A DNA stretch of 42,197 nt from a virus, in the IMG/VR virus record IMGVR_UViG_3300046331_000369, positions 1 to 42,197 of that record. One strand, given 5' to 3'. Below the pieces are notes generated by a model. It was given only the letters and a program-made list of their open reading frames with translations. It searched no databases and was not told the origin of the DNA. The position numbers and the translations under genes were made by a program. The stretch's first letter is position 1, and each line of letters begins with the position of its first letter. Of the stretch, positions 5,982-42,197 are shown piece by piece.

Positions 5982-6820
5982 GACCCGGTGTTCTCCAGTG
6001 CCGGGTTAGATGCGCGAGCCGCGCCGCTTGCAGACGTAGCAGCTCCGCCGGTGAGCGCTTTCGCGGGGACAGAACCCGCGTCCTTAGGAAGCTTCATCGT
6101 CAGCTCAGCAGGGATCTGAAGCGCGGCCGCTGAAGCCGTCGAAACGAAGGTGATCTTTTTGAACGTCAATGAGAAGACGCCAAGTTGTCTCCCCGCGGCT
6201 CGTGAGTAGTCGAGCTGCTCTAGGACAAGCGGTCCCCAAGTGCGGCCTAGCCAAGTCAGAGTGAATTGACCGACCTGCGAATAAGCCTTGTCGAGTTCGT
6301 CATACAGCGCATTGATCCGGTCCGCGTTGGTCTTGCTCTTGAGTACCGTTGCGCGGAACGGCTTGGATCCGGTGTCGATACCTACGAGGCTGCCGAGCGC
6401 GCCGGCTACGGCTCCCGCGGCTGCGCCTACAGCCGTTGTAGCCAAGAGCAAACCCGAGGGCTTGAAGTTGTTCTTCGGCAGCGTGAGAGTTATCTGGGCA
6501 AGCTCCAGAGACGGCTTGAACTTGCCCCCGTGATTCTCGATTGGTGTCTGAGTCTGGTTGATCTCAAGCTTGATCGTCTGCGCGTTTCGAATGAAGTGGT
6601 CAGCGATGCTTGTGCCATCCTCAAGTGCGAAGTCTGTGACCTTGCCAGCGCGTGAATCCGTGAACGTTGGGATAGCGTCAACCTCAACGAACACGGCCTT
6701 GCCTTGCCCGACCCATGAAAGGACCGGGCCGTCCGCGTCGCGCGAGGGAACCTTGAAGTCGTCGCCCTTGGGCTGCGCCCCGAAGCCTACCGCGCTTGCT
6801 GCTGCGTCAAGAAGTCCCAT
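5978..6820 (-). CDS. Dit-like baseplate/distal tail protein
   Basis: 280 residues. Residues ~50-95 (FTDSRAGKVTDFALEDGTSIADHFIRNAQTIKLE) carry the typical Dit-like pattern in which a beta strand is followed by xDGxxIxDH and a conserved hydrophobic/polar strand. A hydrophobic Ala/Gly segment at ~130-150 (LLLATTAVGAAAGAVAGALG) is inserted before the second beta half (TVLKSKTNADRINALYDELDKAYSQVGQFTLTWLG). Such proteins form the ring joining tube and baseplate hub. It follows the tape measure gene by three bases. Confidence 0.7.
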   Translation of the reverse strand: MGLLDAAASAVGFGAQPKGDDFKVPSRDADGPVLSWVGQGKAVFVEVDAIPTFTDSRAGKVTDFALEDGTSIADHFIRNAQTIKLEINQTQTPIENHGGKFKPSLELAQITLTLPKNNFKPSGLLLATTAVGAAAGAVAGALGSLVGIDTGSKPFRATVLKSKTNADRINALYDELDKAYSQVGQFTLTWLGRTWGPLVLEQLDYSRAAGRQLGVFSLTFKKITFVSTASAAALQIPAELTMKLPKDAGSVPAKALTGGAATSASGAARASNPALENTGS

Positions 6821-6823
6821 GGC

Positions 6824-9223
6824 TTAGCCCGCCGGCGCAACTGAAGCCATCGTGCGGCTCCTGTCAGAAGTGAACACGCTATCGAGTGAACTGCTGACGG
6901 CGCCCGCCACTGCGCCGGGAGCAGGTGCACCGCTAACACTGATGTTTATGTTTCGCTGATCGGTGAGCGTCGTGCTCTGGTTCGTGGTCGCGTTCACGTT
7001 CGCCGTCGGCGCGCTCGCCACTACGGCCCGCGAAGCTCCACTTGCCACAGCTTCCACACTGACGCTGCCGGTCCCGATACCTACCGCCGCAAGCGCTCCG
7101 CTTAGCCCAGATTTCACGCCGTCCCAGATCGCGGTGAAGTACCCAAGGATCTTGTCACCGAACCCGGTGATAGCGCTCCACCAATCGGCAAAAGCTGTGT
7201 CGAGCGCGCCGCTTGCCGCTGCCATAGCTTCCCCGTTGCCAGTGAACGCGGCCCATAGGAGCTTGACCGCGTTGATTGCGATCGTGAGAGTGCTGCCCAG
7301 TACGGACAGCCCTGCGATCCACGTGGCTGTAGCGCTCGATATGATGTCGATAGCCGGCACCAATAGCGCGGTTAGGATGTTCGCCAGCATCGTGATGATG
7401 GGCGTAAGGTCCGTTACGAGCTGTACGAGTATAGGCATCAGCTGCTCGACAAGTGGCACCAACGCCACTGCTAGCGTGACAAGCGCCGGCACAAGTGCGA
7501 GGAACGCAGGGAGCAGCGCGTTTAGCAGCGTCGGCACGAGCGGGAGAATGGCCATCATTACTTGGGCCAGCACAGGAACGATCCCCTGCAGCACCGGGCC
7601 GAGCGCGGAAACCAGCACCGTAGCGACCTGAACCACTACTGGGATCAGTGCCGCGAACACGGGCATCAACTCTTTGAGCATGTCGCCGAACAGCGGCAGC
7701 ACGCTCTGAATCACCGGACCCAAGCCCTCGGCCAGCTGCTGAACGATAGGGGCGATCTGCTCCGCAATCATCGGAAGCAACGGCAGCAACGTGCTCGAGA
7801 TCACATCGATCATCGGCGCGAAAGCGACCAGCATCTCGGGGCCAATCTTGCCGAATCCCGCCTTGAGGTCCTTGACCTTCTGGTCAACCGCCGCGAGCTT
7901 CTCGATTGTCGGACCGCTCATTGTCACGCCGAGCGTGGAGAACTTGCCAACGAGCGCGTCAACGGCCTGACCTCCGCCCTCGAATGCTGGCGCGAGCTGA
8001 AGGCCGGCCTCGCTCAAAAGCTTTTGCGTTGCAACGGCGCGCTTCGCTGGGTCTTCGATCTCGCCAAGAGCTCCGCCGACCTCGCGCAGAAGGGTACCCA
8101 TCGGGCGAGTCTTGCCCTCAGCGTCCTTGACGGAAACGCCAAGCTGCTGAAAGAGCGCGGTGAACTCCTTGTTGCCGTTGTTCGCTCCGTCAACCGCTGC
8201 GGCAAGGCCCTTGAAGGATCCCTTGACCGCGTCGGGGCCAGCGCCTGAATTCTTTGCGATGGCCGTCCATATCTGGATCGCTTGCCCGCTCGCTCCGGTT
8301 GTCGCACTGAGCGCCTTGATCTGGTTGGCCGTCTCAAGTGCCTGAGATCCATAGTCGGCTAGCGCGCGCGCTCCTTGGACTACCGCGCCAACGGCAAGCC
8401 CCGCGACTGCGCCGGCAGCGCCTGCGGTGAGCAGTCCACCTTTGGATTCTCCGCCGCCCTTGGAGCCCGCGGGAGAGTCATCGCGCTGCGCTTGCAGCTT
8501 TCGCGACATGCCGCCGACCGCGACTGTGGCACTCTGCGACGCGCTGACGATCTTGGCACGGATGTCGTTCGCGGCTCGCGATGCGATGGCAGAGATCTGC
8601 TGGCCCCACGTGGTGAGCACCGCGCGCGACTCGGACGCGGCCCGGGCCATCGGGTCCAGCATCGGGCGGACCGTGGCTGATACCCTGTTGGCCGCACGCA
8701 TGACCGGAGCGAATGCGCTGGCGATGCCGTTTCCGGCCGCCGCCGCTACGCCCTGAGCGGCTTTCAGCGGACCGGCTAACCCAGACTGGATGCTGGCGTT
8801 AACCCGCCCCATGGCGGCCGCCGTGCTGGCCTGCGCGGCCTGGATCGGGGCCACCACGCTCCGCTGAACCGCGGCGCCTATCTGAGTCAGTGATGCTGAG
8901 ACGGTTCTGGCCGCAGCGGAGGCGCGCGCCGCAAGCGGACCGAACGCAGTAGCAGCGGCAGAAGCGCGTTCAGCTAGCGGCGCAAACGCCTCGCCGAAAG
9001 CCTGACCGATCTCATTAGCGGCCGTGCCGGCGATACCAGCGAGCTGCTGAAGAGCAACACTGCTAGCCGTAGCGGCGGCACGCGCTCCACCCGCAACGCC
9101 TGATAGGCCCGCGTCCAGATCGGAAACGCGGGCAGTGGCTGACTCAAGACCGGCTTGGAGCCGGCTCAAGTCGCGGGTGTCAGCCCGCGTTGTGAGTTGG
9201 ATGATGAGTTCGCGTAGTGCCAT
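6824..9223 (-). CDS. Tail tape measure protein
   Basis: 799 residues. Residues 1-240 are Ala-rich amphipathic helix (LSRLQAGLESATARVSDLDAGLSG) typical of tape measure starts. Around 290-450 is a domain with TTGASGQAIQIWTAIAKNSGAGPDAVKGSFKGLAAAVD, a known tape-measure pattern. Residues ~455-640 form one long hydrophobic Leu/Val/Pro-rich stretch (LLPLLPMIAEQIAPIVQQLAEG and similar), likely the membrane-inserting part. At about 1.5 A per residue the tail would be near 120 nm (rule-of-thumb inference). It follows the frameshifted chaperone pair by three bases, the canonical order. Confidence 0.9.
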   Translation of the reverse strand: MALRELIIQLTTRADTRDLSRLQAGLESATARVSDLDAGLSGVAGGARAAATASSVALQQLAGIAGTAANEIGQAFGEAFAPLAERASAAATAFGPLAARASAAARTVSASLTQIGAAVQRSVVAPIQAAQASTAAAMGRVNASIQSGLAGPLKAAQGVAAAAGNGIASAFAPVMRAANRVSATVRPMLDPMARAASESRAVLTTWGQQISAIASRAANDIRAKIVSASQSATVAVGGMSRKLQAQRDDSPAGSKGGGESKGGLLTAGAAGAVAGLAVGAVVQGARALADYGSQALETANQIKALSATTGASGQAIQIWTAIAKNSGAGPDAVKGSFKGLAAAVDGANNGNKEFTALFQQLGVSVKDAEGKTRPMGTLLREVGGALGEIEDPAKRAVATQKLLSEAGLQLAPAFEGGGQAVDALVGKFSTLGVTMSGPTIEKLAAVDQKVKDLKAGFGKIGPEMLVAFAPMIDVISSTLLPLLPMIAEQIAPIVQQLAEGLGPVIQSVLPLFGDMLKELMPVFAALIPVVVQVATVLVSALGPVLQGIVPVLAQVMMAILPLVPTLLNALLPAFLALVPALVTLAVALVPLVEQLMPILVQLVTDLTPIITMLANILTALLVPAIDIISSATATWIAGLSVLGSTLTIAINAVKLLWAAFTGNGEAMAAASGALDTAFADWWSAITGFGDKILGYFTAIWDGVKSGLSGALAAVGIGTGSVSVEAVASGASRAVVASAPTANVNATTNQSTTLTDQRNINISVSGAPAPGAVAGAVSSSLDSVFTSDRSRTMASVAPAG

Positions 9224-22674: not shown

Positions 22675-22797
22675 CTACCTGTTCACTTTCAGAGTCTTTG
22701 GTACTGTTTGGTACTGTTTGGTACTGTCTGCACTGTTTGAACCTGTGGCCTCATTGGTTAGGACCGTCGCCGCTTGAGCGATGGCTCGCGCGCTCAA
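22675..22797 (-). CDS. Possible 40-residue peptide over the 10-bp repeats
   Basis: From a TTG at 22797, overlapping the upstream stop as TTGA and preceded by GAGGTGGAG, a frame runs 40 codons to a stop at 22675. It reads through the 10-bp repeats as STKQYQTVPKTLK. No family recognised; the repeats alone may explain the open frame. Confidence 0.25.
   Translation of the reverse strand: MSARAIAQAATVLTNEATGSNSADSTKQYQTVPKTLKVNR
22697..22726. repeat. Three perfect 10-bp tandem repeats before terS
   Basis: TTTGGTACTG occurs three times in a row with no mismatch, followed by a degenerate fourth unit (tctgcactg, 22727-22735). Each unit contains GGTAC. They lie about 30-60 bases before the terS start on the minus strand. 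Spacing of one helical turn favours a protein-binding site, such as a pac/cos recognition element or operator. Confidence 0.75.
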
Positions 22798-28284: not shown

Positions 28285-29267
28285 CGGAGCCGCCCCTCGA
28301 ACCCTGGGAAGCGATTGTGGTCCAATGTTTTCAGCGGGACCTTGACTACCTGCCGCGTCCCCGCCGGCTCACCGGGGCGAGTCGGGCGCCGCCCCTCGAT
28401 CCAGTCACCCACGATCCAGGTCGCGGCTTTCTTGACCCATGCCTTGCGAGTGCGGACGTCAGACGGGTCTGACCCAAAGTGGGTGTGTACTTTTTGCAAC
28501 ATATCCGGGATCGCCCATGCCGGGACCTGGCTCCCCGATAGCGCCGCCGTCACGTCTGCCACGGTGCACGAATGGGGCGAGCAAGGGACGCACTCGCCCG
28601 GGTTTACAGATCTCGCTCTCTCGGGAGATACAGGACTAGTGTTTGCTGCGCCGGAATTGGCACGCCCTTTCGTTTCTGGAGTCACTTGGTCGCCTGGGGT
28701 ACCGACTAAGGCTAAAGGCTCTCTGCGTGGCAGTGTGGCGGTTTCGCTGTGTGAGTGAGTTTTCGAGTCGGTTTCCGGTCGCGTTAACTCTTCACGGCTC
28801 GCGGGTTCGCGCGGGGTTCCCACACTCTCGGTTAGAGAGTGATCAGGTACGGGTACGGGTACGGGTACGGGGCAGAGTTTTGCTTCCGTTTTGCTTCCGT
28901 TTTGCTTAAGCGTTTGCTTCTGTTTTGCTTTGACTTTGCCGCCTTTTTGCCCGGCTGAGGCGCGTACTTTTCGAGTCTCCCGCACTTGCTCGGCAGACGG
29001 GTTCCAGTCCAAGAAATCGTGAACCATCCACCCGTAATCATTGAGTTCCCAGAGACCCTTTGATTCGAGCTCTGCTATGGTTTTGCTCAGTGCTTTACCG
29101 CGCGGAGCGGCAGGCCAAGTGACTGGCATATCGCGCGCGATTTTCCCGTCTGTTAGTCTCGCGCAGCACTCAAGCATAGCCGTCACGTGCAATCGCCACG
29201 CGCGATCGGAAAGCGGCGCGATCTTTTCGTGGCGGTGAATTTGATCGTCGAGCCTGAGCCAAGTCAC
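28281..29267 (-). CDS. Replication initiator/helicase-loading-like protein
   Basis: 328 residues. Residues 1-95 (WLRLDDQIHRHEKIAPLSDRAWRLHVTAMLECCARLTDGKI ... GLWELNDYGWMVHDFLDWNPSAEQV) follow the N-terminal winged-helix pattern of phage replisome organisers. A long low-complexity middle (GGKVKAKQKQTLKQNGSKTEAK, CPVPVPVPVPD, then Ser/Thr/Glu/Pro) links to a C-terminal domain of ~90 residues (VPAWAIPDMLQKVHTHFGSDPSDVRTRKAWVKKAATWIVG). It lies directly before the DnaB-type helicase. The middle contains repeats that may form the origin. Confidence 0.65.
   Translation of the reverse strand: MTWLRLDDQIHRHEKIAPLSDRAWRLHVTAMLECCARLTDGKIARDMPVTWPAAPRGKALSKTIAELESKGLWELNDYGWMVHDFLDWNPSAEQVRETRKVRASAGQKGGKVKAKQKQTLKQNGSKTEAKLCPVPVPVPVPDHSLTESVGTPREPASREELTRPETDSKTHSHSETATLPRREPLALVGTPGDQVTPETKGRANSGAANTSPVSPERARSVNPGECVPCSPHSCTVADVTAALSGSQVPAWAIPDMLQKVHTHFGSDPSDVRTRKAWVKKAATWIVGDWIEGRRPTRPGEPAGTRQVVKVPLKTLDHNRFPGFEGRLR
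28847..28872. repeat. GTACGG hexamer repeat in the initiator-like gene
   Basis: GTACGG occurs four times in tandem and is read as the Pro-Val run of the protein. It lies just left of the TTTTGCTTCCG repeats; together they form a repeat cluster in the middle of the initiator gene. Confidence 0.75.
28878..28910. repeat. 11-bp AT-rich repeats, possible origin iterons
   Basis: TTTTGCTTCCG appears twice in direct tandem followed by TTTTGCTTAAG; weaker copies (tttgcttctg, ttttgcttt) continue to about 28932. The strand bias (T/C on plus) and 11-bp spacing resemble iterons plus an AT-rich element. Lambda O carries its origin inside the gene in the same way; that comparison is inference. Confidence 0.6.
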
Positions 29268-39088: not shown

Positions 39089-40120
39089 ATGCAAACTGTA
39101 CCGGGTGGAAGCGACAAGGGAAAACCGTGGAGCGAGATAGACGAAAAGGCGATCACATACTGGGCCGAGAAGGCCACTAATCCAGCTGCTAAAGCGGCCG
39201 CACAGGAGGAACTCAGGCGCAGAACTTCCGGCGGGGGTGAACAGTCTGGACAGTCGTCGCTAGCTGAACGGCCTCGGGATGAGCCTAGGCCTCAGCCGGC
39301 GCAGCGACCTCAACCAACCGCGCTTGCGGTAGCGCCTGTGCCCAAGTCTCTAGGTCGCGCGATGCATGACCCTGGCGCGGTGAATGAACAGCTCGTGAAG
39401 CTGGCCGAGAGCTATCATCTCGTCTCCCCCGTGACTCGTTTCGACAGCTTGCCCGAGGGGTTCGGGGTCTCATTTTCGATGGTGCAGATCAATCCAGACC
39501 CGAACGCGGGCGAGGTCTACAAGGTCGACGGCGGGAAGCTCGCGCTATCGCACAACGCGCTTAACCGGATCGCCGCAGCCGCTGAACTGAGCTGGGACGC
39601 GGAGAGAAGCCGACGGCTCGATGATGGCTCGGACTCGTGTTATTGTCACTATCGAGCAGTGGGGTACGTGCGCAGCTCGGACGGGTCCCCGCGGACTGTG
39701 ACGGGTGAGGTCGAGATCGATATGCGCCCCGGGTCGCCCGACGTCAAGGCTGCGAAGTCGGACACTCAGATCTCTCAGGTGCGCCGCTTTATTCTCAGGC
39801 ACGCTGAAAGCAAAGCGAAGAATCGCGCGATCTCATGCATGGGCGTCAAGCGCTCGTACATGCCGGACGAACTACGCAAGCCGTTTGCCGTGACTCGCCT
39901 TCAGTTCACGGGTCACTCCGACGACCCCGATCTCCGCCGCGAATTCGCTCGCATCCGGGCCGAGCAGGTCATGGGAGCTCACCGCGCACTGTACGGAGCC
40001 GCTCCCCGCGCTGCGCTACCGCCGAGCGACGGCATGGCGCCACACGCGCCGCCCCCGCTTGACGCGGCTTTCGCGGTCAGCGACGACGGCGAAGTCTTTG
40101 ATGAAGAGGGGCGGTACTGA
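39089..40120 (+). CDS. Putative single-strand annealing/recombination protein
   Basis: 343 residues, strong ribosome site GAAAGGGA. After a helical, Gln/Pro-rich start, residues 90-265 form one domain: ESYHLVSPVTRFDSLPEGFGVSF, DGGKLALSHNALNRIAAAAELSWD, CHYRAVGYVRSSDGSPRTVTGEVEIDMR and ISQVRRFILRHAESKAKNRAISCMGVKRSYMPDELRKPFAV. The closing 'r...eSKAkNRAI...G.K.sY...EL.KPF.v' pattern occurs in uncharacterised phage proteins encoded with SbcD-type nucleases. A role in homologous recombination with the next gene is inferred. It ends in an acidic tail. Confidence 0.55.
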   Translation: MQTVPGGSDKGKPWSEIDEKAITYWAEKATNPAAKAAAQEELRRRTSGGGEQSGQSSLAERPRDEPRPQPAQRPQPTALAVAPVPKSLGRAMHDPGAVNEQLVKLAESYHLVSPVTRFDSLPEGFGVSFSMVQINPDPNAGEVYKVDGGKLALSHNALNRIAAAAELSWDAERSRRLDDGSDSCYCHYRAVGYVRSSDGSPRTVTGEVEIDMRPGSPDVKAAKSDTQISQVRRFILRHAESKAKNRAISCMGVKRSYMPDELRKPFAVTRLQFTGHSDDPDLRREFARIRAEQVMGAHRALYGAAPRAALPPSDGMAPHAPPPLDAAFAVSDDGEVFDEEGRY

Positions 40121-41265
40121 TGCGCGTCTTGGCCTCAGGGGATCTGCACATCGATGCGGACGGTCCCCGCTCGAAAGAGTGCGCGCGCATCCTGGATTGG
40201 ATCAACGTGCAGATCGAAACGCTGAAGCCCGACGCGTACCTCTGCACGGGCGACGTCTATCACGCGGCGAGCACGCCCGCGGATCGGCTTCTGGCGGCCG
40301 AGCACTTCACGCGGTCGGCGAAGGTCTGCCCGGTGTTCATCGCACGTGGCAACCACGACAAGCTGAGCGACTTGGAGATCATCGGTCGGCTCAGTAGCGA
40401 CTTCCCGATCGTCGTCGAAGAGGGAGCCGGAATCCACATCGCCGGCGATGGCTCGATTGCGATTATGGCATGGCCGAACCGTGCAAGCTTGTCCGCGATG
40501 CTTGGGCGCCCGATTGGCTCCGAAGGTCTGGACGATGCGGCGCGGGTCGCAATGCGCGAGGTGCTCAAAGGGTTCTCTGATTCGTGGTGGCGCGGAGAAA
40601 ACTCCCCCAAGATCCTGCTGGGCCACTTCATGTGCGACGGCTCGGTGACATCAACGGGGCAACCACTGATCGGCGCGGAGCTTTCGGTGGGCACCGCCGA
40701 CCTTGATCTGGCAGGTGCCGACGTAGTGATCATGGGACACATCCACAAGCCGCAAGAGTTCGATGCCGGCACACAATGCCCCAAGTACTATTGCGGTTCG
40801 CCCTATCGCACGGCGTTTGGTGAGGTCGAGCAGAAGAGCGTCCTACTCGTAGAGTTCAGCGCGAGCGGGCGTAGCATCACGCGGGTCCCAACGCCTTGCA
40901 CGCAGATGGTGCTTTGCGAACTGACTTGGGACGGTAGCGGTTTATCACACCCGTGCGACGGGTGGGGCGGTCAAGGGTGCGAGGTTCGATTGCGCTACAG
41001 CGTCCCAAGCGACTGCCGGGAAAAGGCTCGGCACCAGGCGGAAGGGTGGCGCGCAGAGATGTTGCGCAAAGGCGCGAGTTCCGTTAAGCTCGATGAGCGC
41101 GTCGAAACGACATCGCGCGCGAGGGACGGCGCTGCAGAAGTGGCGCAGGCCGTCAGCTTGCAAAAGAAGCTTGACGGCTACTGGCTGATGCGGGGCGACG
41201 TCCCGCCGAATGAACGGCGCGCGGCGCTGATGCAAAAAGTGAACGAGCTACAGGAGGCACAATGA
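40120..41265 (+). CDS. SbcD-like metallophosphoesterase nuclease
   Basis: 381 residues, start overlapping the upstream stop (TGATG). Metallophosphoesterase motifs in order: SGDLHID (Asp8, His10), CTGDVYH (Asp45), RGNHDKLSD (Asn78-His79-Asp80), LLGHFMCDG and MGHIHKPQ. This is the Mn-binding set of SbcD/Mre11/T4 gp47, with the usual length. DNA end-processing for recombination or repair is the likely role. The SbcC-type ATPase partner is not seen in the window; it could lie beyond the right edge. Confidence 0.88.
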   Translation: MRVLASGDLHIDADGPRSKECARILDWINVQIETLKPDAYLCTGDVYHAASTPADRLLAAEHFTRSAKVCPVFIARGNHDKLSDLEIIGRLSSDFPIVVEEGAGIHIAGDGSIAIMAWPNRASLSAMLGRPIGSEGLDDAARVAMREVLKGFSDSWWRGENSPKILLGHFMCDGSVTSTGQPLIGAELSVGTADLDLAGADVVIMGHIHKPQEFDAGTQCPKYYCGSPYRTAFGEVEQKSVLLVEFSASGRSITRVPTPCTQMVLCELTWDGSGLSHPCDGWGGQGCEVRLRYSVPSDCREKARHQAEGWRAEMLRKGASSVKLDERVETTSRARDGAAEVAQAVSLQKKLDGYWLMRGDVPPNERRAALMQKVNELQEAQ

Positions 41266-41624
41266 GAAACCCAGAAAAAACATTCGAAAAACGTATAGCG
41301 CAGGGCGAACTCTACATCACTCGCGTGGAGTCTATCCCGCCGAGTTTCACAGCTTCGACGCGAGGTGAGCTAATCGTTGGACACTCCGAAACCGGCCACC
41401 ACCATGTGATCAGGGACGGCGTGACCATGTTTGACGCCGAACCTCGCGACCCGTCAGTTTGCTATCTGCAAGTTGATGATACGCTGAAGGGCCCGGCAGC
41501 TCTGGAGCACCTGAAGAGTTACGCTCCTGTCCACCCGACGGTGTTGCTGAAACCCGGCGCGGTCTATCGCGTGCGGCGCGCTCGCCAGAAGACTCCGAGC
41601 GGATGGGAGATGGCTCGTGATTGA
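41262..41624 (+). CDS. Conserved protein with GHSETGHHHV motif
   Basis: 120 residues, ATGA overlap with the nuclease gene. ELYITRVESIPPSFTASTRGELIVGHSETGHHHVIRDGVTMFDA...HPTVLLKPGAVYRVRRARQKTPSGWEMARD. The HSETGHHH cluster and the closing 'Y.vrrqr.ytp.gw' pattern recur in small phage and bacterial proteins, often beside repeat proteins like the next gene (from memory). Possibly metal-binding. Confidence 0.65.
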   Translation: MRNPEKTFEKRIAQGELYITRVESIPPSFTASTRGELIVGHSETGHHHVIRDGVTMFDAEPRDPSVCYLQVDDTLKGPAALEHLKSYAPVHPTVLLKPGAVYRVRRARQKTPSGWEMARD

Positions 41625-42197
41625 TTACCTAACGCCTGAGCAGCTCGCTCTCATGAGCGTGGTCGCGAACGAATGGATCGAACGGTCTAGGACTTGGAGA
41701 CCGGTAAACATAGACAACGTAAGGGGCGCCCTGCCGTTGCTATACAGTGGAATGCCTGCGCCGCTAATTATCGCATTGCCGTCTCCAATGGCTGCGCAGC
41801 GGCATGCCAACGTGAGCGCCAACGTGGACGACAACGTGAGCGCCAACGTGCGCGCCAACGTGCGCGCCAACGTGGACGCCAACGTGGACGCCAACGTGTA
41901 CGCCAACGTGCGCGCCAACGTGTACGCCAACGTGTACGCCAACGTGTGCGCCAACGTGTGCGCCAACGTGGACGACAACGTGAGCGCCAACGTGGACGCC
42001 AACGTGCGCGCCAACGTGCGCAAGAACGTGTACGCCAACGTGTACGACAACGTGCACGCCAACGTGCGCACCAACGTGGACGACAACGTGGACGACAACG
42101 TGAGCACCAACGTGCGCGAGAACGTGGACGCCAACGTGAGCGCCAACGTGAGCGACAACGTGTACGCCAACGTGAGCACCAACGTGGACGCCAACGT
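41617..42197 (+). CDS. DUF6745-like tetrapeptide-repeat protein, cut by window edge
   Basis: Open from GTG 41617, with GGGAG eight bases before, to the window end: at least 193 residues, no stop. It overlaps the upstream gene by eight bases. The first ~63 residues (IDYLTPEQLALMSVVANEW; later LLYSGMPAPLIIALPSPMAAQ) resemble the start of DUF6745-type proteins, where a 'lG...P.......SP..a' segment precedes repeats. From residue 64 it is Asn-Val-x-Ala repeated 32 times. It replaces the minus-strand reading of the same DNA. C-terminal domain lies outside the window. Confidence 0.7.
   Translation, partial: MIDYLTPEQLALMSVVANEWIERSRTWRPVNIDNVRGALPLLYSGMPAPLIIALPSPMAAQRHANVSANVDDNVSANVRANVRANVDANVDANVYANVRANVYANVYANVCANVCANVDDNVSANVDANVRANVRKNVYANVYDNVHANVRTNVDDNVDDNVSTNVRENVDANVSANVSDNVYANVSTNVDAN
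41806..42197 (+). repeat. 12-bp tandem array, 32 units plus a partial one
   Basis: Unit GCC-AAC-GTG-xxC, continuing past the window. The AACGTG core is invariant in all units. The last codon varies only among AGC, GAC, CGC, TAC, TGC and CAC; the first codon is mostly GCC with some GAC, ACC, AAG or GAG. Length is in frame, so unit gain or loss would not shift the reading frame. Confidence 0.95.

Follow-up and report, generated by a model that had tools for sequence, protein, structure and literature searches.

A hypervariable tetrapeptide-repeat array and a conserved small partner gene at a DUF6745-type phage locus

The repeat array and the gene that carries it

The window analysed here is an entire IMG/VR virus record of 42,197 bases, which may be incomplete, and a 12-bp tandem array fills its final 392 bases and is cut by the contig end. 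TRF reported a single array of 12-bp period at 41806-42197 (32.7 copies, score 413), and a count of units placed 32 full copies of AAC GTG NRC RNN, read as N-V-x-[A/D/T/K/E], at 41809-42192 on the plus strand, followed by a 33rd of which 5 bases are present and the rest is lost to the contig end. Codons 1 and 2 are AAC and GTG in 32/32 units each, in agreement with the 32 full units and fixed AACGTG described in the initial annotation. Codon 3 is GAC in 9 units, AGC in 7, CGC in 7, TAC in 6, TGC in 2 and CAC in 1; by base it holds A7, G9, C8 and T8 at the first position, A16 and G16 at the second and C32 at the third, so that it is always NRC and encodes D, S, R, Y, C or H, the xxC codon and residue set reported earlier. 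The accompanying claim of a single hypervariable codon did not survive, since codon 4 varies too (GCC 21, GAC 6, ACC 3, AAG 1 and GAG 1, encoding A, D, T, K and E) and each unit therefore carries two variable codons. Changes are confined to the first two bases of codons 3 and 4, with the exception of two third-base changes in codon 4 (AAG and GAG). The pattern AACGTGNNCRMCAACGTGNNC occurs 29 times on the plus strand of the window and 0 times when it is read backwards. The encoded protein thus contains 32 or more copies of a four-residue unit in which two residues are frozen and two vary, and the order of units in the window shows no more block repetition than do shuffled arrays (longest repeat 2 units, shuffle mean 2.2, p ~0.97).

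The array belongs to the 5′ part of what is almost certainly a DUF6745-type phage gene (41617-42197, plus strand), defined from the ORF list, its translation and an N-terminal HMM and still open at the contig end. As first annotated, the plus frame opens at a GTG (41617) with a ribosome-binding site, GGGAG at 41605-41609 on the same strand, 7 nt upstream, and its first 8 bp are shared with the preceding gene (41262-41624). We take this frame to be the coding one because its N-terminus is homologous to other phage proteins and because the third codon positions of the array are frozen. The first 63 aa (41617-41805, plus strand) form a domain homologous to the N-terminus of DUF6745 phage proteins, a relationship that the initial annotation had proposed to search for: an HMM of the N-termini of 72 relatives matched the window with 26.7 bits and E=1.1e-6, the next best of 5,845 targets (845 window segments and 5,000 shuffles), a shuffle, reaching 10.2 bits. 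An earlier HMM of 32 sequences had given E=0.0025. This domain, of the form LT..Q...W......P..SP in DUF6745 phage proteins, lies before the array in the window, and the closest single sequence to the window N-terminus is that of locus L130 (phmmer, 2.6e-5), whose array mixes SV and NV units. A direct search of viral contigs for close relatives of the window N-terminus or of its NV array returned none.

The first lead to the family was a weak tblastn match (31%, E=7) to phage cta39025, which encodes a full-length relative with a similar N-terminus, an SSLx array of 12-bp units and, after it, a C-terminal domain with a PF20530 (DUF6745) match at 1.1e-33. Scans with the C-terminal part recovered 52 viral and 5 bacterial loci, and most of the viral ones share the architecture of N-domain, tetrapeptide array and DUF6745 C-domain, so the C-terminal domain anticipated in the initial annotation is present in relatives, after the array. 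PF20530 itself has no match in the window record, because the model covers the C-terminal part and the contig stops inside the array. Such truncation is usual for the family: contigs starting inside the gene or array make up 21/52 of the viral set seeded with DUF6745 and 22/48 of that seeded with the partner gene described below. These breaks indicate that arrays disrupt assemblies and that their lengths are uncertain, and could be taken to mean that short-read assembly collapsed or invented the array at the contig end, but we consider this highly improbable, given that genes built in this way are also present in complete annotated records (cta39025, prophiGD102-1 and, by analogy, Tweety) and in the interior of contigs. 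The proteins of cta39025 (UOF77368.1, in MW202476.1) and of the Mycobacterium prophage prophiGD102-1 (gp38) are DUF6745 (PF20530) phage proteins whose N-terminal domain is collinear with that of the window and, as in the window, is followed immediately by an array with a frozen core and a variable NR codon, with the partner gene next door. The window differs from other DUF6745 proteins in its NV core and NRC residue set, in a C-terminal domain that would lie beyond the contig end, and in having its partner upstream.

Several matches to other proteins were set aside. A match to the T4 gp5 C-terminal triple beta-helix (PF22178, 16.8 bits) fell below its cut-off of 30.9 and was confined to the array, a phrog_430 match at 6.5e-7 covered the array only, and baseplate lysozyme matches were likewise confined to the periodic array and below the Pfam cut-off; all were read as low-complexity. 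Elsewhere in the window, TRF found further short tandem repeats at 22697-22739 (10-bp period), 28846-28871 (6-bp) and 28877-28930 (11-bp).

A conserved partner gene and its surroundings

The gene whose 3′ end runs past the start codon of the array gene (41262-41624, plus strand, 120 aa) was not recognised in the first reading as a conserved partner, which HMM and phmmer proved it to be; it is of the QGE/QGDV...GHSETGHHH type, similar to phrog_27831. An HMM built from the neighbours of DUF6745 genes matches the window at 41280-41621 with E=9.6e-23, and the window protein matches the neighbour of the DUF6745 gene in L031 directly (phmmer 7e-26). The HMM has matches in 43/57 DUF6745 loci, many of those lacking one being contigs that break at the array, which would put a partner lying upstream out of view; it also matches in prophiGD102-1, in Microcystis phage LMM01, on a Nocardia plasmid and at loci beside array-less chromosomal DUF6745 genes. 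In the reverse direction, 73/80 viral loci found with the partner as seed carry DUF6745. Where the two were paired, 67/72 pairs lie at most 300 nt apart and all share a strand, with the partner upstream of the DUF6745 gene in the window and in the same order in 10/72 pairs. Among 50,697 phage records the only match to the window partner adjoins the DUF6745-array gene of cta39025. The partner accompanies the genes of DUF6745, an unstudied phage family of wide occurrence, almost everywhere that both flanks are visible.

BLAST clustering of flanking ORFs (E 1e-6) missed this gene, which was recovered by a PHROG tally and the HMM; its family corresponds to phrog_27831, an unnamed PHROG, and the window's own copy stayed below threshold in a PHROG scan at 1e-3. 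Partner sequences share a near-invariant Q-G, a G-H-x-H and a later His, and the protein is possibly a small metal-binding beta protein. The family has no relatives in Pfam, NCBIfam or PDB, and profiles of the partner and of the C-domain gave nothing convincing against PDB sequences. Array-less DUF6745 genes adjoin the partner in Microcystis phage LMM01 (gp174, L077) and on Actinomycetes chromosomes (L072-L074); within the sampled loci, it is mainly phages and prophages that carry the added array.

Upstream of the module, on the same plus strand and opposite to the structural genes, lie a phrog_13782-type protein (39089-40120) and then an SbcD-like metallophosphatase (40120-41265; PF00149 2.2e-15, phrog_100 1.1e-14), which we record as context only. 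Across DUF6745 loci most annotated neighbours are genes for replication, recombination or nucleases, named ones including helicases, DnaB, RecT, RusA, exonuclease and other nucleases, methyltransferases and WhiB, with some terminase matches also among them. The predominance of helicase, RecT, nuclease, methyltransferase and WhiB neighbours makes a role at the virion tip unlikely. PADLOC returned scattered matches only, including Type I specificity, nicking-endonuclease and Cas2 models, which we read as low-complexity.

Variation, predicted structure and separate encoding of the repeats

Across 47 arrays, Tweety serving as a comparison, variation spares the core and the third codon positions, and pN is higher than pS in 44 (medians 0.154 and 0.021), a ratio that within a tandem array is a description and not a formal test, the units not being independent, and that is persuasive because it recurs in dozens of arrays. 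Averaged over the same 47, the variable codon has a purine at its second base in 98.8% of cases, and in a wider set NR occupies at least 85% of variable codons in 83/93 arrays. Cores among the 93 are QV, AT, AV, SL, QL, SV, NL and a few others, NV being confined to the window; each core is constant within one array and differs between arrays even synonymously, which fits the homogenisation expected of such repeats. Blocks of units are repeated at p<0.05 in 25/80 arrays, and unit number spans 0 to 81. Two loci, L024 and L025, have downstream flanks that are 98.6% identical and carry arrays that differ in unit order and in length (34 and 21 units), lengths that metagenome assembly could distort. 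The array is a module that combines a frozen core with hypervariable residues, and the proposal of expansion together with selected variation made in the initial annotation is upheld by the pN and pS values and by the different arrays between near-identical flanks. Diversity-generating retroelements also focus variation on the first and second positions of particular codons; we rejected such an element here, as the window record, which may be incomplete, contains no reverse transcriptase (PF00078), and unlike their targets the adenines of the AAC core are never altered.

AlphaFold2 predicted the window array alone as one long helix (pLDDT 84-96, pTM 0.32). For a full-length relative, L057, the N- and C-domains were mostly above 90 and the array was poorly predicted, at 43-60 over most of its length, again as a helix at low confidence. 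The solenoid-like fold suggested initially finds no support in these predictions, which give a helix in both cases, and no solenoid of solved structure was matched: a fold search with the DUF6745 model found no match below E=2 in PDB, and against viral models it found other DUF6745 proteins, one unnamed fragment and nothing else. Gly is common at the variable positions of arrays (24% and 17%), and Pro is nearly absent from fused arrays but reaches 7-8% in the mini-genes of L104 and L111, so that the helix is a tentative prediction. Pentapeptide-repeat proteins are likewise built on a short repeat with regular small and hydrophobic positions, but their period is 5 where that of the window is 4, and no pentapeptide-repeat family is among the window's Pfam matches. 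The long regular helix predicted for the window array, with the DnaB, RecT, RusA and exonuclease genes found near DUF6745, would suit a rod or filament serving to organise a replication-associated body, with variation arising from repeat instability and composition constraints. Such a structural polymer is a rather improbable explanation, as it needs neither hypervariable residues nor multiple different mini-proteins.

Those mini-proteins come from loci in which the DUF6745 gene has no array. Small stand-alone tetrapeptide-repeat genes occur in 13/25 array-less loci with both ends visible and in 0/53 fused loci (Fisher p=2.4e-8), with the proviso that L140, L141 and L142 are near copies (L140/L141 98.4% identical) and L104 and L111 look related, so that the independent number is smaller than 13; the mutual exclusion of the two arrangements holds. 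L140 has ten consecutive mini-genes at 6493-8277, with 4-base overlaps and about 50-70 aa each. Runs of repeat-only mini-genes near an array-less DUF6745 gene are seen at L140:6493-8277, in L141, at L135:1413-3016 and L143:4395-5694, and in L104 and L111; they mostly overlap by 4 bases and consist of repeats only, between a conserved start and end (e.g. MKQV...QVKENLK). The fused-or-split pattern argues that the parts function jointly, the array being a hypervariable unit that can be encoded apart and that works together with DUF6745 and the partner.

The same pattern counts against a purely intramolecular spacer. A length ruler or linker, in which unit number alone counts and sequence variation is neutral, would accommodate the range of 0 to 81 units and the altered repeat numbers in Tweety escape mutants (PMC9262239), but nearly all arrays show variation that is nonsynonymous only, with a purine-restricted second base, and separately encoded repeat proteins cannot space two domains of another protein. 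Already strained by the separate mini-genes and the codon pattern, this explanation seems to us improbable, and the repeats look like a fast-changing recognition surface and not a plain spacer. It is conceivable, though we hold it with reserve, that phages carry a three-part system of small partner, DUF6745 body and hypervariable chain, the last serving as an interchangeable specificity subunit that is either fused or supplied by an operon of about ten mini-proteins; such a system would amount to a phage-borne, rapidly evolving repertoire of binding rods.

Tweety gp54 and a possible recognition module

The closest precedent is gp54 of mycobacteriophage Tweety, with its counterparts Che8 gp57 and PMC gp51, in which 12-bp units keep the first six bases and the third codon positions invariant, vary at positions 7, 8, 10 and 11, and differ in number among close phages (PMC2884959). 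We confirmed this codon pattern on the Tweety sequence record, and the window has the same fixed positions, 2/32 units departing at the third base of codon 4. The likeness ends there: the gp54 core is Ala-Ala and not N-V, its flanking parts and neighbours are unrelated, and partner, N-terminal and C-terminal HMMs of the DUF6745 family found nothing significant around it (best E 0.45), so that the comparison concerns mode of working and not kinship. According to two reviews, Tweety escape mutants with more or fewer gp54 repeats overcome the Phrann gp29/gp30 prophage defence (PMC9262239, PMC8549241), the second of which adds MichelleMyBell. The initial annotation held the function of such proteins not to be established; this stands for DUF6745, for which a literature search found no paper on any member, but it passed over Tweety gp54, a close precedent with a measured phenotype.

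Building on this precedent, we tentatively favour an intracellular recognition module, with counter-defence as its probable purpose, as a reading that has somewhat less than an even chance of being right. Inside the cell, the repeat chain would confer specificity on a phage protein machine, with Val/Leu and Asn/Gln/Ser/Ala at the frozen positions building one regular rod and the two variable positions of each unit forming its binding face. Recombination and mutation could quickly change unit number and order, so that the phage could either match or escape a partner that is itself changing. The likeliest such partner would be a defence system belonging to the host or to a resident prophage. In this model docking would be left to the array and the subsequent action to a body made up of DUF6745 and the small partner, giving the phage a tunable counter-defence. 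Since Tweety gp54 has no detectable homology to the DUF6745 family, the link to counter-defence is an analogy, and the array-less DUF6745 and partner genes on bacterial chromosomes (L072-L074) mean that the core function need not be counter-defence.

Arrays might instead pair with identical arrays and so tell kin phage from competitors in the same cell, and superinfection exclusion of this kind would favour endless novelty of unit order. The extreme turnover between the near-identical L024 and L025, the private order of units and the co-encoding of many mini-array variants by one phage (L140, L143) all accord with such self/non-self recognition. We nevertheless judge it unlikely, because variants co-encoded within one phage differ, which is a poor fit to a single identity tag.

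The linked partner, the rule of a frozen core with a variable face and the alternation of fused and separate arrays make an odd repeat accessible to experiment: they indicate which genes form a set, that the repeats work as one unit, and where the residues expected to set specificity lie. Should it be a counter-defence or kin-recognition module, it would be widespread, highly evolvable and hidden by the breaks of short-read assemblies at the array. A further parallel, cited in PMC2884959 and likened here by description, is VR2 of Bordetella phage gene bbp36, a short repeat of variable copy number whose unit is 24 bp as against 12 bp in the window. On a practical level, many viral contigs break exactly at DUF6745 arrays, and contig ends could serve to find the family.
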